From NCBI GenBank assembly GCA_022560555.1, contig JADFSZ010000129.1:1-5114 (forward strand): a DNA stretch of 5,114 nt, read 5' to 3'. This DNA comes from JADFSZ01 sp022560555 [NCBI: PVC group bacterium] (lineage in GTDB: Bacteria; GCA-001730085; JADFSZ01). How positions within the stretch are numbered: the first letter of the stretch is position 1; each line of letters begins with the position of its first letter. Shown here piece by piece: positions 988-5,114 of the stretch. The notes below the pieces were generated by a model. It worked only from the letters and a program-made list of their open reading frames with translations, searched no databases and had not been told where the DNA came from. The translations under genes were made by a program, and so were the position numbers.

Positions 988-1227
988 ATGTCGAGAAATA
1001 TAGCGTTAACGCTGATTTTCGGAGCTTGTATCATGGGGCCGTGCATGGTGTTTGCCGCGAGTTCTTTCGCGAGCATTATCGCTTTGGGGCGGAATCCGTC
1101 AGCCGCTCCCAAGGTATTCACGGCACTTGTTTTGGGTTTGGTGTTTGCGCAGACCCTAGCCATTGTCGCGATCTTAGTCGTGTTTCAATTGTATTTGCCG
1201 ACGGAAGCAATTTTGTCGCACACATAA
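988..1227 (+). CDS. atpE: F-type ATPase c-like subunit 1, ion-binding carboxylate replaced by Gln
   Basis: This 79-residue protein is a two-helix membrane hairpin of c-subunit type. Helix 1 spans about residues 5-32, the polar loop is GRNP (34-37, matching the ARQP/GRNP loop that contacts F1), and helix 2 spans about 43-69. It lines up without gaps with classical c subunits such as that of Ilyobacter tartaricus (recalled sequence) from the GP pair at 17-18, through the loop, to the G at 50. In that alignment the essential Glu/Asp of helix 2, 18 residues after the loop proline, is Q55 (codon CAG, 1150-1152). The only acidic residue in the whole protein is E73, beyond helix 2. The small-residue helix 1 pattern (GxGxG) is replaced by CMVFAASSF, and the Gln used by sodium-type c subunits is F22. 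A ribosome site AGAGGA at 974-979 supports ATG 988, one base after epsilon. The fold call is firm; ion transport is doubtful. Confidence 0.88.
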   Translation: MSRNIALTLIFGACIMGPCMVFAASSFASIIALGRNPSAAPKVFTALVLGLVFAQTLAIVAILVVFQLYLPTEAILSHT

Positions 1228-1261
1228 TTTGCTTGTTCCCGTGGCCGATAAGAGGGAGTTT

Positions 1262-1498
1262 ATGAATCGGAATATGGAGCTTACGCTTATTTTTTTATTT
1301 GTTGTTATGGGGCCGTGTTGTGTCTATGCCGTAAGTTGTTTTACGAGCATTTTGTCCTTAGGACGAAATCCGGACAGGGCTCCAAAAATTTTTATGGCTT
1401 TAGTCATCGGATTAACAGTTGTGCAGATAATAGCTATGGCGGGCGTGCTGATTGCGTATCAGACCTATTTACCGAACGAAACGGCTCTAACTCAATAA
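1262..1498 (+). CDS. atpE: F-type ATPase c-like subunit 2, also lacking the ion-binding carboxylate
   Basis: This 78-residue protein is a second c-type hairpin, about half identical to the first by hand count and aligned to it without gaps. It shares MGPC at 16-19, LGRNP at 33-37, APK at 40-42, ALV and GL in helix 2, and YLP near the end. The helix 2 carboxylate position is again Gln (Q55, CAG at 1424-1426). Acidic residues occur only at E6, D38 in the loop and E73, all outside the membrane core. Helix 1 has Cys at 19, 20 and 26 and Y22 where sodium-type rings carry Gln. ATG 1262 follows AGAGGGAG at 1251-1258 and gives the same N-terminus (M-x-R-N) as copy 1; a TTG at 1229 would add 11 residues with no support. 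The difference between the copies suggests an old duplication with both kept, perhaps as a mixed ring. Confidence 0.87.
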   Translation: MNRNMELTLIFLFVVMGPCCVYAVSCFTSILSLGRNPDRAPKIFMALVIGLTVVQIIAMAGVLIAYQTYLPNETALTQ

Positions 1499-1508
1499 TG
1501 GGGTCTCT

Positions 1509-2231
1509 ATGTTAATTGTATCGATGGTTCTTTTTCAAATCTTAATGGTTGTCGGGCTTATAGTGATTTTTCGAAAGATTTTAAATCAAAATGTGTCTTC
1601 GGCTACGCGGCATTTGGAAAGCATGAACGAAGAATATGTTAAAAAAGAGAAGGAGCTGAATTGCCGGCTTGAAGAAATCGATGACGCGTCGAATGAAAAG
1701 ATTCAAAAAGCCACCGAAGAGGGTGAGGAGGAGAGGAAAAAAATATTAGATGAAGCCGAAGGCCAAAAGCAGCACATCATCAATGATGCCCGCAATCAGG
1801 CAAAAATGATTGTGGATCAAGCCGAGAAAACACGCGATCTATTAATTTTAGAAATAGATGATCGTATCACCCAGGAAGGGCTGGGTAAAGCGTGTGAGCT
1901 GATTCAGCATTGTCTTCCCGAAGAATTCAAGAGAGAAATTCATACCCGGTGGGTTAAAGAATTATTGGAAAACGGATTCGAAAACGCGGATCATATGCAG
2001 GTAGATAAAAGTGTGGAAGAAGCCAAGATACGTACAGCATTCACATTAAGTGAAACTGATATGGAAAATATACAAAAGCGAATTTCAGAGTATCTTAAAC
2101 ATGATGTCCGTATCACACAAGAGACGGATTCTAAGCTTGTCGCGGGGATTGTTGTGACGATAGGAAGTTTGGTTTTTGACGGAAGTTTAAATAATCGGGT
2201 TCAGGAGCAAGTGAGTGCACAGTCAAAATAA
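1509..2231 (+). CDS. atpF: F-type ATPase b subunit fused to the delta C-terminal domain (peripheral stalk)
   Basis: This 240-residue protein begins with one transmembrane helix (residues about 4-21) and continues as a long charged coiled coil (about 30-125, with repeated Glu/Lys/Gln and an AEGQKQHIINDARNQAK stretch typical of b). The end, about 173-237, matches the C-terminal domain of delta: FTLSETDMENIQKRISEYL, then LVAGIVVTIGSLVFDGSLNN, corresponding to the delta GGIVVRIGDxxxDGS motif. The six-helix N-terminal domain of delta, which in ordinary enzymes binds the top of alpha, is not present; the linker of about 45 residues is too short for it. No separate delta gene lies between this gene and alpha. 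It should act as the stator arm holding F1 to the membrane. ATG 1509 follows GGGG at 1500-1503, a weak site. The gap to alpha is 11 nt. I am sure of b and delta-C; how the stalk caps alpha is unknown. Confidence 0.87.
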   Translation: MLIVSMVLFQILMVVGLIVIFRKILNQNVSSATRHLESMNEEYVKKEKELNCRLEEIDDASNEKIQKATEEGEEERKKILDEAEGQKQHIINDARNQAKMIVDQAEKTRDLLILEIDDRITQEGLGKACELIQHCLPEEFKREIHTRWVKELLENGFENADHMQVDKSVEEAKIRTAFTLSETDMENIQKRISEYLKHDVRITQETDSKLVAGIVVTIGSLVFDGSLNNRVQEQVSAQSK

Positions 2232-2242
2232 AGGGGAATACC

Positions 2243-3724
2243 GTGCATGAAGAAAAAGTAATCAACCGTAAATCTCAGGCTCAATTTGATGTCCGCGAGG
2301 TCGGGTACGTCGAATCTATCCGTCAATTTGTCGTCATTGCTAAGGGCTTGCCATTTTGTATGAACGGACAAATTGTTGAATTTGCAAATAAGGTTTTGGG
2401 TCTTGTGATTGGTTTTACTGAACATGAAATCCAGATTCTCGTATTGGGAAGTGCCGCGGATATTCGCGCGGGGGATGAAATTTACAATAAAGGCAAAACC
2501 TTGACTCTCCCGGTCGGCGATGGGTTCGTCGGACGAATTGTGAACGGATTGTGTCAGCCTCAAGACGGATTGGGTCCCATTGAGGCGGATGATCATTTTC
2601 CTGTCTTTCGTGTAGCTCTCGGAGTGATGGAGAGACAGCCCGTGGTCAAAACGTTTGAAACGGGAACTCTGATTCTTGATGCGATCATTCCAACAGCAAA
2701 AGGACAGCGTCAGCTTCTCATTGGGGACCGCTTGACCGGGAAAACGACTGTGGCGATGGATGCCATCCTCAATCAAAAAGGAAAAGATGTTATTTGCATC
2801 TACTGCTGTATCGGTAAACCCTACTCGAGTCTTGTCAAAATCGTAGATTTACTGCAGGAACATGATGCCTTAAAACACACCATCATTGTAACGGGAGTCG
2901 CGTCGTTGTCAACGGGGGAGCAGTATTTGGCTCCTTATACCGCGTGCATGTTGGGGGAGTACTTTATGTTTCAAGGAAAAGATGTGTTTGTCGTTTTTGA
3001 TGATTTGACAAAACACGCGTGGATTTATCGCCAGATTTCCCTTCTTTTAGAGCGTTCGCCCGGACGCGAGGCTTATCCGGGAGATATCTTTTATCTGCAT
3101 TCGCAATTGATGGAAAGAGCCGGGTATTTGAATGAAGAACGGGGTGGGGGATCCATGACTTTTTTCCCCGTTGTGGAAATCTTGCAGGGTGATCTTACGG
3201 GATATATTTCTACCAATATTATCTCCATGACAGACGGGCAATTGTATTTTTCAACGGATCTGATTAAAAAAGGTTTTTTGCCGGCGATTGATTTTGGTCT
3301 GTCGGTGTCCCGTATCGGAAACAAAGCGCAGTGGAGTGCTATGAGAGATGTCAGTAAAATGCTCCGGCTTGAATACATTCAATACAAAGAACTTCTCAAG
3401 ATGACACAGATGCAAGGAGCCTCTGTCACCGAAGACGCCCAAAACAAACTGAGGCGCGGAGAGGCCATCAATGTTCTCATCAACCAATATCGAAACGAGC
3501 CTGTTTCCATAGAAGCCCAGATCGTTTATCTCTACGCGTTGGATAAGGGGTTTCTCGACAGTCTCTCTAAAGAGCAGGTAGGGGTGTTTAAAAAAGATGT
3601 TTGTTCCTTTCTTGAAAAAAAATATCCGAATATTTTTCAAGAGCTTCGGGAAAATCAGGATTTGAATGACGAAATGAAGAAAAAGCTTGAAGCCGGTTTC
3701 AAAGATTATGCGAGTAAAATCTAA
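2243..3724 (+). CDS. atpA: F-type ATPase alpha subunit
   Basis: This 493-residue protein has the full alpha layout: N-terminal beta barrel, nucleotide-binding domain and C-terminal helical domain, near the usual length of about 500. The P-loop is GDRLTGKT at 161-168; the usual Gln is Leu164, while Lys167 and Thr168 are kept. FDDLTKH is at 252-258, followed by SLLLERSPGREAYPGD and GGGSMTFFPVVE. The arginine finger that completes the catalytic site on beta is present as R357 in GLSVSRIG (352-359). These features identify alpha and not the catalytic beta subunit. The N-terminal GDGIA region of ordinary alpha is replaced by SIRQFVVIAKGL, and the IGQKRS segment by IGKPYS (190-195), so the protein is divergent. 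The GTG start at 2243 has AAGGGG at 2231-2236 with normal spacing. It forms the hexamer with beta around gamma. Confidence 0.95.
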   Translation: MHEEKVINRKSQAQFDVREVGYVESIRQFVVIAKGLPFCMNGQIVEFANKVLGLVIGFTEHEIQILVLGSAADIRAGDEIYNKGKTLTLPVGDGFVGRIVNGLCQPQDGLGPIEADDHFPVFRVALGVMERQPVVKTFETGTLILDAIIPTAKGQRQLLIGDRLTGKTTVAMDAILNQKGKDVICIYCCIGKPYSSLVKIVDLLQEHDALKHTIIVTGVASLSTGEQYLAPYTACMLGEYFMFQGKDVFVVFDDLTKHAWIYRQISLLLERSPGREAYPGDIFYLHSQLMERAGYLNEERGGGSMTFFPVVEILQGDLTGYISTNIISMTDGQLYFSTDLIKKGFLPAIDFGLSVSRIGNKAQWSAMRDVSKMLRLEYIQYKELLKMTQMQGASVTEDAQNKLRRGEAINVLINQYRNEPVSIEAQIVYLYALDKGFLDSLSKEQVGVFKKDVCSFLEKKYPNIFQELRENQDLNDEMKKKLEAGFKDYASKI

Positions 3725-3776
3725 GATAGAAGGGATAGGATACGCTACATTGTTTATTAAATTCAGGGAATCAACA

Positions 3777-3846
3777 CCAGATTTTCAGGTCTGCCAATTG
3801 GGGATAACGCCGGATTTGCCATAACCTACGGTTCTGCAAAATCTGG
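3777..3846 (+). repeat. Inverted repeat forming a long possible hairpin
   Basis: The arms are CCAGATTTT (3777-3785) and its exact reverse complement (3838-3846). With a one-base bulge, three more pairs (CAG with CTG) can be added. The 52-nt interior holds the palindrome CCAATTGG (3794-3801) and a 4-bp hairpin at 3823-3833. A third, weaker copy of the arm, CCGGATTTG, is at 3810-3818. Confidence 0.5.
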
Positions 3847-3880
3847 CACGGGCTACTTGGGTAGCCGATTGGGGGTAAAG
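3793..3880 (+). repeat. Diverged 17-bp direct repeat, second copy at the gamma start
   Basis: GCCAATTGGGGATAACG at 3793-3809 and GCCGATTGGGGGTAAAG at 3864-3880 agree at 14 of 17 positions by hand count. The second copy contains the G-run that acts as ribosome site for gamma and the first base of its GTG start. The pair, 71 nt apart, suggests a local duplication of the leader. Confidence 0.4.
3851..3866 (+). promoter_or_regulatory. Small perfect hairpin just before the gamma ribosome site
   Basis: GGCTAC-TTGG-GTAGCC forms a perfect 6-bp stem with a 4-nt loop, ending 4 nt before the G-run at 3871-3875. No T-run follows, so it is not an intrinsic terminator. Its place suggests an effect on translation start or mRNA stability; this is inference. 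Confidence 0.4.
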
Positions 3881-4725
3881 TGAAAACCCTTTCGCAAATC
3901 AAAAAAGATATGGAGTTTAATAAGGATCTGACTGTGTTAATCGAGGCCCTAAAATCTATTGCCATCGGGGAATATTATGCCCTCGAAAAAAAAATAAAAT
4001 TTTATAAAAAATATTTGGCAAGTGTTGAGAGTTTTTTTGAATATATTGATGTGGAGACGATCAATCATCCGTTTGTGAAGCCGCGAACACATAAGCAGGC
4101 TGTGATTGCCATTACGTCGGACGCGGGTTTTTTGGGGGGTGTGAACATGCGCGTGGTTCATGCCGCGCTCCATGAAGCCGAAAATATGCCGACAACACTC
4201 CTTGTCGTCGGAGAGCGTGGAAAAATGTATGTTCCAAGCGGGCTTCATTCTCTTGTGAGTTTCCCCGGGATAAGCGAGGAATCCCGTTTTGAACAGTCAA
4301 TACAAATGAGAAATTATCTTGTCAAGCAAGTCCTTTCAGGCGCTTATGATACCGTCAAGCTTGTGTATCCAAAGCCCGTATCCATGATGGTCCAGCATGT
4401 TGAGGTTGTTCAATTTCTGCCTTTTCGTCCGTCCAATACGAAGCTGGCTCCTCCGGCGGTCATAGCGAATACTATTATGGAATCCCGTCTGGAAGACACT
4501 GTTGAGTATCTTGTGACTTTATGGATGGGAGAGATGCTCTTTGAAATATTTGGATTAAGCCGCTTAGCCGAGTTTTCAGCACGTTATTTTCACCTGGAAG
4601 AGAGTAATGAAAAATTGAATGATGAAAACAAAAAGATTCAGTTACAGTATTTTCGTATCCGTCATGAGCTTATTGACAGATCCATGCGCGAACTATTCGC
4701 GGGAAGGGCTACACGTGGACGTTAG
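3880..4725 (+). CDS. atpG: F-type ATPase gamma subunit (rotor shaft)
   Basis: This 281-residue protein fits gamma in length and layout. The N-terminal helix (MKTLSQIKKDMEFNKDLTVL, then IEALKSIAIGEYYALEKK) matches the first half of the shaft coiled coil. ITSDAGFLGGVN corresponds to the SDRGLCGGFN motif of the Rossmann-like middle part. The C-terminal helix holds LSRLAEFSARYFHLEESNEK followed by the second strand of the coiled coil. The first helix lacks the common ITxAMxxVAxxK wording and instead resembles what I recall of N-ATPase type gamma subunits (DLxxxxxxLKxIA). An in-frame TAG at 3862-3864 blocks any upstream extension; GTG 3880 follows GGGGG at 3871-3875. The protein should rotate inside alpha3beta3 and bind epsilon and the c ring. 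Its 3' end overlaps beta by 11 nt, which suggests coupled translation. Confidence 0.92.
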   Translation: MKTLSQIKKDMEFNKDLTVLIEALKSIAIGEYYALEKKIKFYKKYLASVESFFEYIDVETINHPFVKPRTHKQAVIAITSDAGFLGGVNMRVVHAALHEAENMPTTLLVVGERGKMYVPSGLHSLVSFPGISEESRFEQSIQMRNYLVKQVLSGAYDTVKLVYPKPVSMMVQHVEVVQFLPFRPSNTKLAPPAVIANTIMESRLEDTVEYLVTLWMGEMLFEIFGLSRLAEFSARYFHLEESNEKLNDENKKIQLQYFRIRHELIDRSMRELFAGRATRGR

Positions 4726-5114
4726 TAGTGATAAAGCAAAAATAATCGGGAAAGTTGTGGCGGTGCAGGGGCCGGTTGTGGATGTGAAATTCGAGACGCA
4801 ACAAGAAGTCCCGAATGTTTTTGGCCTTATCACTACGTATACCATCGATAAGGAAGAAGTGTTTTTGGAAGTGGCCGAACATTTGCCAGGGAATATCGCG
4901 CGTTGTATTGCTATTCATTCCACGATTAATATTCCACGTTTTGCCAAAGCTTATAATCTCGGGAAACCCATCGAAATTCCTGTAGGGGATGCTATGTATG
5001 GGCGACTTGTGAATGTTTTGGGGCATCCCATTGACAAAGGAGGGGAGATAAAGTCGGATGAGACCATGCCGATTCGAAAAGCTCATATGGGCAGCCTCAT
5101 TAACACAAGTGAGA
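4715..5114 (+). CDS. atpD: F-type ATPase beta subunit, N-terminal part (cut by window end)
   Basis: The frame gives 133 codons before the window ends. It starts with IIGKVVAVQGPVVDVKFE at residues about 10-27, the conserved beginning of the beta barrel in beta subunits. GNIARCIAIHSTINI follows (usually VRTIAMDSTDGL), and then IPVGDAMYGRLVNVLGHPID (usually VPVGxxxLGRIxNVLGxPID), with PIRKA near the end. The P-loop (GGAGVGKT) and catalytic Glu lie beyond the edge, so catalytic competence cannot be judged here. GTG 4715 is chosen because GAAGGG at 4703-4708 stands 6 nt ahead and the next residues lead straight into the first strand. The start lies inside the gamma gene. The usual DGL-RG stretch after STxxx is replaced, so this beta is divergent like the alpha. 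Confidence 0.93.
   Translation, partial: MDVSSDKAKIIGKVVAVQGPVVDVKFETQQEVPNVFGLITTYTIDKEEVFLEVAEHLPGNIARCIAIHSTINIPRFAKAYNLGKPIEIPVGDAMYGRLVNVLGHPIDKGGEIKSDETMPIRKAHMGSLINTSE

Follow-up and report, generated by a model that had tools for sequence, protein, structure and literature searches.

The F-type ATPase of Omnitrophota has already been described, from its alpha and beta subunits, as a non-respiratory, 'symbiotic' enzyme; in that paper (PMC10066038) the alpha subunit is placed with the Mycoplasma types 2 and 3, type 4 pilus genes lie within 10 kb in 57 of 66 contigs, and the terms c-ring, rotor and AtpE occur 0 times in its main text. In the Mycoplasma type 2 and 3 clusters nothing resembles subunit a, b or c (PMC3369863), and the work proposed for the type 2 F1-like ATPase is gliding, not ion pumping (PMC3369863 and PMC11864180). 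We report here on an F-type ATPase operon found on a contig of 5,114 nt (JADFSZ010000129.1, our C100), analyzed over its entire length and hereafter called the window, from the 1.66 Mb metagenome-assembled genome (MAG) of a bacterium of the PVC group (GCA_022560555.1; 222 contigs, 91.5 % complete). The operon contains two tandem genes for c subunits, c1 and c2, and both products carry Gln in the position of the ion-binding carboxylate. The system is of a known kind; what is new is an ion site that has changed repeatedly, paired with the lack of subunit a. To our knowledge, the carboxylate of the c-ring is among the most conserved residues in bioenergetics, and a literature search that left aside supplements, subscription papers and preprints returned no report of a c family without it.

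The operon resembles the Omnitrophota enzyme in that its best alpha relatives are from Omnitrophota MAGs, in the pilus or type II secretion system (T2SS) genes that adjoin it and in the presence of giant open reading frames (ORFs); it differs in that the published enzyme was assigned to type 2/3, like those of Mycoplasma without c and b (PMC10066038), whereas the loci studied here keep c and a fused b/delta subunit. With the Mycoplasma type 2/3 systems it shares an F1 motor that is additional to an ordinary rotary ATPase, but it retains b/delta and c, and its alpha subunit missed the corresponding NCBIfam models (393 of 600 bits for MMOB1660, 298 of 520 bits for MSC_0619), scoring higher, with 550 and 528 bits, against general F-type models. 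Likenesses to the N-ATPases are the condition of a second F-type operon and the fused b/delta-like subunit (TIGR03321, E = 1.3e-13), and the order epsilon ... c-b-alpha-gamma of the window is, we presume, also that of N-ATPases; nevertheless, alpha reached 506 of 750.5 bits (TIGR03324) and b 51.3 of 224.7 bits (TIGR03321), and beta is the last gene in the window operon. N-ATPases have a subunit a, AtpQ/AtpR and a carboxylate-rich c. Hairpins with Gln at the carboxylate position also occur in mixed rings, such as those of V-type c proteins and of the F-type operon in locus L078, but these have a Glu hairpin in the same protein or operon together with a subunit I or a, and in the window operon neither a Glu hairpin nor subunit a was found. 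Of the parts of an F1Fo enzyme, the operon has the catalytic core (alpha, with the beta piece of contig C21), gamma, epsilon (N-terminal domain only) and b/delta (with only its C-terminal half matching PF00213); its c subunits lack the helix-2 carboxylate, and no subunit a was found.

Genes c1 (988–1,227, plus strand, 79 aa) and c2 (1,262–1,498, plus strand, 78 aa when counted from its ATG; the ORF as called mechanically begins upstream of it, with a TTG at 1,229) had been claimed, in the original prediction, to code for two c subunits that both lack the ion-binding carboxylate because of CAG codons for Gln, and this was borne out. The codon for residue 55 is CAG in c1 (1,150–1,152) and in c2 (1,424–1,426), and phmmer aligned both products without gaps to PDB 9itj_H (E = 2.8e-4 and 0.052), with the Glu of the structure over Q55 of each. 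Matches to PF00137 ran along the hairpin (21.5 bits, E = 2.8e-4 for c1; 17.6 bits, E = 0.0046 for c2), both under the 24-bit cut-off, and the polar loop GRNP is present in the two proteins. An AlphaFold2 model of c1 alone (mean pLDDT of 80) contains two helices, spanning residues 3–35 and 40–78, with residue 55 in the middle of the second. The first Asp or Glu of c1 appears only at residue 73, in the C-terminal tail, and the acids of c2 are Glu6 (start of helix 1), Asp38 (polar loop) and Glu73 (tail); neither protein has any other acid in the middle of the membrane. By sequence, c1 and c2 appear to be intact and real c-subunit hairpins.

The two proteins are 53 % identical to each other; c1 is up to 75 % identical to the c subunits of other loci, and c2, the more diverged tandem copy, is at most 49 % identical to any other c compared. 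The tandem pair is peculiar to the window within its clade, since there is a single c gene in every other clade locus with a readable c. Two loci from a second lineage (L162 and L164) also contain a tandem c pair, both with Glu and with a very diverged second copy, and in them alpha is moved ahead of epsilon. The column of residue 55 is also different from Glu in ten other loci from nine other genomes, with Gln in eight, Phe in one and Ala in one. Because of these residues at the same column, Gln55 is not a sequencing accident, and we ruled out an assembly error as its origin; the loss of the carboxylate belongs to a wider lineage and not just to the window contig.

A scan of named genomes with alpha identified 54 loci, of which 33 are titled Omnitrophota or Omnitrophica (47–72 % identity) and 19 are from Mollicutes-type genomes, one Clostridia and one Hydrogenedentota (40–45 % identity). 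The other two, L066 (titled Woesearchaeota, 53 %) and L079 (titled Parcubacteria, 52 %), have alpha subunits that fall within the Omnitrophota group of the tree, and are probably mis-binned contigs, or may have resulted from transfer. The alpha subunit of the window is nested in a supported clade of 22 rows, starred in the tree, of Omnitrophota-type loci. The c subunit was readable in 20 of them, with a residue other than Glu at site 55 in 11: nine have Gln (the window, L048, L050, L052, L053, L058, L060, L063 and L168), one has Phe (L055) and one has Ala (L073). L050 and L058 are two copies of one genome, so that the 11 loci come from ten genomes. The remaining nine loci of the clade have Glu (L051, L054, L056, L057, L059, L062, L064, L096 and L172), as do all 17 loci of this ATPase outside the clade in which c was readable (the outer loci), and the three c subunits read from Mollicutes.

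Changes between Glu and other residues number at least seven on the best alpha tree, and six, seven and eight in 39, 959 and two of 1000 bootstrap trees, counts that by parsimony do not distinguish loss from regain. The presence of Glu in the 17 outer loci and in the three sequences from Mollicutes makes loss the simpler reading. Close relatives have changed this residue several times without losing the operon. Locus L078 (titled Hydrogenedentota), which was left out of the c alignment and is not counted among the losses, contains at 2,090–4,219 an F-type operon with a gene for subunit a, then one for a c of four hairpins whose residues at the site are Gly, Gln, Gln and Gln, and then one for an ordinary c with Glu. 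It probably represents a mixed ring at most, and no parallel loss, although its gene content indicates that Gln hairpins can exist in F-type operons that retain their ion parts.

We then considered whether the c genes are maintained. In the comparison of L050 and L058, both with Gln, c had a dN of 0.017 and a dS of 0.412 (dN/dS near 0.04), and alpha a dN of 0.036 and a dS of 0.424. Thirteen c pairs were tried, and dS in the others was 1.46–1.96 or not computable; among the genes of the window only c1 versus c2 yielded a value (dN 0.40, dS 1.96). The possibility that these are pseudogenes is not supported, with open frames and a low dN/dS in the one unsaturated pair. The alignment of 21 clade c sequences contains 14 invariant positions, including 33–37 and 40–42, around the polar loop, which in known enzymes binds gamma and epsilon. 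Site 55 has four residues and, by residue count, is tied at about rank 15 of 60 in variability, not being the most variable. On this alignment, the coupling loop is kept while the ion site varies. Residue Gln67 of c1 (1,186–1,188), twelve positions past site 55 and close to where helix 2 ends, is invariant in the 21 sequences. The carboxylate had also been called essential, which is correct for ion-translocating F-ATPases, as generally held, but not for the clade of this operon, where it is repeatedly absent from genes that otherwise seem maintained and is evidently dispensable for whatever the complex does.

No match to subunit a (PF00119) was obtained in the genome of the window at E ≤ 10, this MAG being 91.5 % complete; the same search had matches in 9 of 14 control genomes, and the other five are presumably users of A/V-type enzymes. 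There is no room in the window for an a gene between epsilon and beta, and in 24 loci of relatives that span from the giant or anchor ORF to alpha there is no intervening ORF of at least 90 aa with three or more predicted membrane helices. PF00119 was found in 13 of 34 genomes of relatives, with the a gene always on a contig other than that of the ATPase locus (sequence check included), and a canonical c gene lies beside it in 12 of the 13, the exception being G113, which has a piece of a at a contig end only. These canonical c subunits have Glu in 12 of 12 read (a count that excludes G101:C37, whose c was a PF00137 match only), including those of G100, G103, G112 and G122, whose locus c is non-Glu. 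The search for another c with Glu in the genome of the window, advised in the original prediction, found none in an F-type operon, and only a two-hairpin V-type c, whose first hairpin has Gln and whose second has Glu, encoded on contig C13 together with subunits A, B and I of a V-type ATPase. The ion coupling of the host is probably left to this enzyme.

The genes of the window are all on the plus strand, in the order end of a giant ORF, epsilon, c1, c2, fused b/delta, alpha, gamma and start of beta, and those of the ATPase are all open frames. The order common in the relatives starts with a giant ORF or a stand-alone anchor protein and continues with epsilon, c, b/delta, alpha, gamma and beta. 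The first frame (3–572), whose 5′ end is cut by the start of the contig and that stops at 572, codes for a C-terminal piece of the giant protein, with an extracytoplasmic domain and helices, and is 43 % identical to residues 1775–1934 of the L048 ORF (2010 aa, contig-cut); in relatives, this domain closes ORFs of up to 2934 aa (contig-cut), directly before epsilon. A second frame of the same protein (512–736), with a C-terminal transmembrane anchor and an acidic tail, is 50 % identical to residues 1941–2010 of L048, which directly follow those that the first frame matches. At its C-terminal end the giant ORF is broken between both frames, at about 500–515, whereas it is a single unbroken frame in L048 and L057; the break may be biological or an assembly error. 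Gene epsilon (750–986, 78 aa; PF02823, E = 4.5e-13) codes for the N-terminal beta-sandwich without the C-terminal helical domain, and its product measures 73–92 aa across the 23 loci of Omnitrophota in which it was identified. The fused b/delta stalk (1,509–2,231) has an N-terminal hydrophobic stretch, a coiled-coil-like middle and an OSCP C-terminal half (PF00213, E = 1.7e-13, profile positions 97–167 of 172). It is followed by alpha (2,243–3,724; PF00006, E = 3.5e-67), with Walker A and arginine-finger stretches present in an alignment to PDB 9nvl_A, by gamma (3,880–4,725; PF00231, E = 1.6e-33) and by the N-terminal piece of beta (4,715–5,114; TIGR01039, E = 6e-27), which runs off the contig.

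A 348-aa beta piece with catalytic motifs stands at the end of another contig of this genome, C21, and is followed by genes for a protein of MshEN type and an ATPase of T2SSE type. The beta pieces of the two contigs look adjacent, which suggests that C21 continues the operon of the window. Alignment to solved F1 showed that the catalytic stretches of alpha and of the C21 beta piece (P-loop, catalytic Glu and arginine finger) are intact. The 155-nt gap between alpha and gamma (3,725–3,879) contains a G-rich 3′ hairpin, and its last 30–40 bases recur in two other places of the genome (C216 and C176). A structured RNA was sought in this gap and the idea was dropped, with no Rfam match and a folding z-score of -1.07, no better than shuffles allow.

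A giant or anchor C-terminal domain is encoded upstream of the ATPase genes in 24 of the Omnitrophota loci, and three giant ORFs contain Ig-like repeats (Kre9_KNH, Reelin subrepeat; weak in L062). The anchor protein, modeled on the L096 copy with an alignment of eight intact stand-alone relatives, is predicted to combine a beta sandwich and helices with a single long membrane helix (mean pLDDT of 78), and its fold had no PDB match at E ≤ 0.001. In L096 itself, gamma (8,784–9,631) occurs in three separate frames, a broken gene or an assembly error. Downstream, of the 19 Omnitrophota loci whose sequence extends 2 kb or more past beta, 18 have a T2SSE gene no farther than 1.6 kb from it, the exception being L056. 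A Pfam search with 18 selected neighboring proteins, from both sides, identified on this side MshEN, T2SSE with PilZ, T2SSF, histidine kinase and pseudopilin-type proteins. One T2SSE protein, from L050 (14,168–16,348), carries both PilZ and MshEN. Proteins with Peptidase_MA and a response regulator-GGDEF are encoded just before epsilon in two outer loci (L071, 6,529–8,379; L100, 6,833–8,752). From what is generally known of these families, PilZ and MshEN, with GGDEF neighbors, hint at control by cyclic-di-GMP.

The assignment of the window to its genome was also examined. Its tetranucleotide profile had correlations of 0.905–0.949 with seven stretches of six other contigs of its own genome, and of 0.23–0.67 with seven Omnitrophota loci (an eighth stretch, L190, consisted of N letters and was dropped). 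This match argues weakly against contamination of the bin, since binning itself relies on such profiles. RpoB was 64 % identical to that of G001, a genome of the same phylum, 57–69 % to those of 16 Omnitrophota genomes and 49–63 % to those of 11 others, a comparison in which some alignments were partial and one genome gave none, and that does not separate vertical from transferred inheritance of the operon. The G001 genome has a single F-type alpha match (42 %), with an a gene on the same contig. It also contains five PF00119 matches on five contigs (L197 and L200–L203), and a neighboring c in L200 (1,108–1,371) has Glu; this c looks mitochondrial by eye, and the G001 bin may include organelle DNA. 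In the genome of the window, two PF00006 proteins, on C32 and C127, look by eye like Rho factors, one of them with a short N-terminus, and not like flagellar ATPases.

The loss of the carboxylate here and in relatives suggests that the machine turns ATP into movement and does not pump ions. The reading we favor, to which we give somewhat better than even chances, is that this non-respiratory ATPase of the Omnitrophota kind is a rotary motor driven by ATP, that its c-ring is blind to ions, and that it works on what the neighboring genes encode, the giant surface protein and pilus/T2SS-like proteins. Neither H+ nor Na+ could cross the membrane part of the complex; F1 would hydrolyze ATP and so turn gamma and epsilon and, with them, the c-ring, which would act as an ion-blind membrane rotor or bearing, and b/delta would be the stator that holds the complex. 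The C-terminal helices of epsilon inhibit hydrolysis in known enzymes, so a short epsilon of 78 aa without them suits a hydrolyzing motor. One output might be the giant Ig-repeat surface protein, with its one membrane helix, encoded just upstream, and another the PilB/GspE-PilC/GspF-pseudopilin apparatus encoded just downstream; this mechanical output is a guess from the gene neighbors. As to its origin, we think it possible, at slightly less than even chances, that the lineage turned the c-ring from an ion turbine into a purely mechanical membrane rotor for a giant adhesin, a pilus platform, or both, retaining F1, the stator and the ring while dropping a and then the carboxylate. Subunit a would likely have been lost first, leaving Glu without purpose in one clade, where it could drift to Gln, Phe or Ala.

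Several observations weigh against a motor of this kind. The outer loci keep Glu without a PF00119 match on their contigs, and 9 of their 14 genomes have none at all; because of this, the absence of a alone does not free Glu, which in those loci may have another role, such as packing of the ring in protonated form, or may serve an unrecognised stator. Glu also persists in 9 of 20 loci inside the clade, and, among the genomes of the clade, PF00119 goes unmatched in 7 of the 10 with a non-Glu c and in 6 of the 9 with Glu, so that loss of Glu does not track the absence of a, which lowers our confidence. The inner forks of the alpha tree are weak, and the low dN/dS of the Gln genes comes from a single pair, with dS saturated or nearly so in the others. 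An a gene could exist elsewhere, given that the MAG is 91.5 % complete in 222 contigs and that the contig lacks whatever lies upstream of the giant ORF. The broken frame of the giant protein may mean that the machine is damaged in the window, or that the assembly is faulty. Finally, rotation and the formation of a ring are presumed, and the putative link with the giant protein or the pilus comes from gene neighborhood.

The alternative that survives best, and that we nonetheless consider improbable at about one chance in a handful, is that the c hairpins are a static membrane anchor that tethers F1 as an ATPase or scaffold for the pilus platform, with a ring that is still or idling. The failure to find subunit a agrees with it, the invariance of Gln67 in the 21 clade sequences would suit a fixed contact, and rotation of the ring is purely an inference; yet gamma, epsilon, the b/delta stator and the polar loop of c, all of them kept, make sense together for torque transfer, and a mere anchor would need no stator. 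Less probable still, and in our opinion rather unlikely, is a decay of the operon in the lineage of the window, the lost carboxylates, the extra diverged c and the broken giant ORF being early steps of its loss. Besides the break between frames 3–572 and 512–736 and the low identity of c2 to any c except c1 (at most 49 %), this agrees with the terminal branch of the window alpha, the longest of a 12-row starred set (0.62 versus 0.03–0.35). Against decay stand the ATPase genes of the window, which are all open, the ten genomes, that of the window included, that have a non-Glu c in operons otherwise like those with Glu, and a dN/dS near 0.04 between L050 and L058, both with Gln; moreover, faulty assembly can produce a single frame break of this sort in a MAG.

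We regard it as quite improbable that ions are still moved by an unrecognised route, in which the pair formed by Glu and subunit a has given way to another residue or stator, such as a membrane helix belonging to the giant protein or to b/delta. Something does keep Glu in the 17 outer loci though no a gene is on their contigs, and, in an alignment of eight stand-alone copies of the anchor protein, invariant Trp and Gln residues mark the ends of the membrane stretch; however, c1 has no titratable acid in the membrane, an anchor with a single helix offers no half-channels, and site 55 can also be Phe (L055) or Ala (L073), which cannot bind ions. Least probable of all, and very unlikely in our view, is that c1 and c2 share a working mixed rotor with an ion-competent c encoded at another place in the genome: such mixtures exist, as in the V-type c of this same genome and probably in the L078 operon, but that operon has a Glu-bearing c and an a gene of its own, the only other c matches in the genome of the window are to the two-hairpin V-type protein, with no a gene found, and the same state is seen in relatives of the clade whose locus has a single Gln c and whose genome has no a gene.

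A carboxylate that comes and goes while the loop that couples c to F1 stays fixed would constitute a natural separation of torque from ion flow. If an ATP-driven rotor is indeed what these operons encode, ATP-driven torque would act across the inner membrane without any ion current, and the loci described here would be concrete candidates for an F-type motor doing mechanical work across a membrane, as has been proposed for gliding in Mycoplasma. They also suggest a route from an F1Fo enzyme toward an F1-like motor without Fo. Annotation from alpha and beta alone would credit such genomes with an ion-driven ATP synthase.
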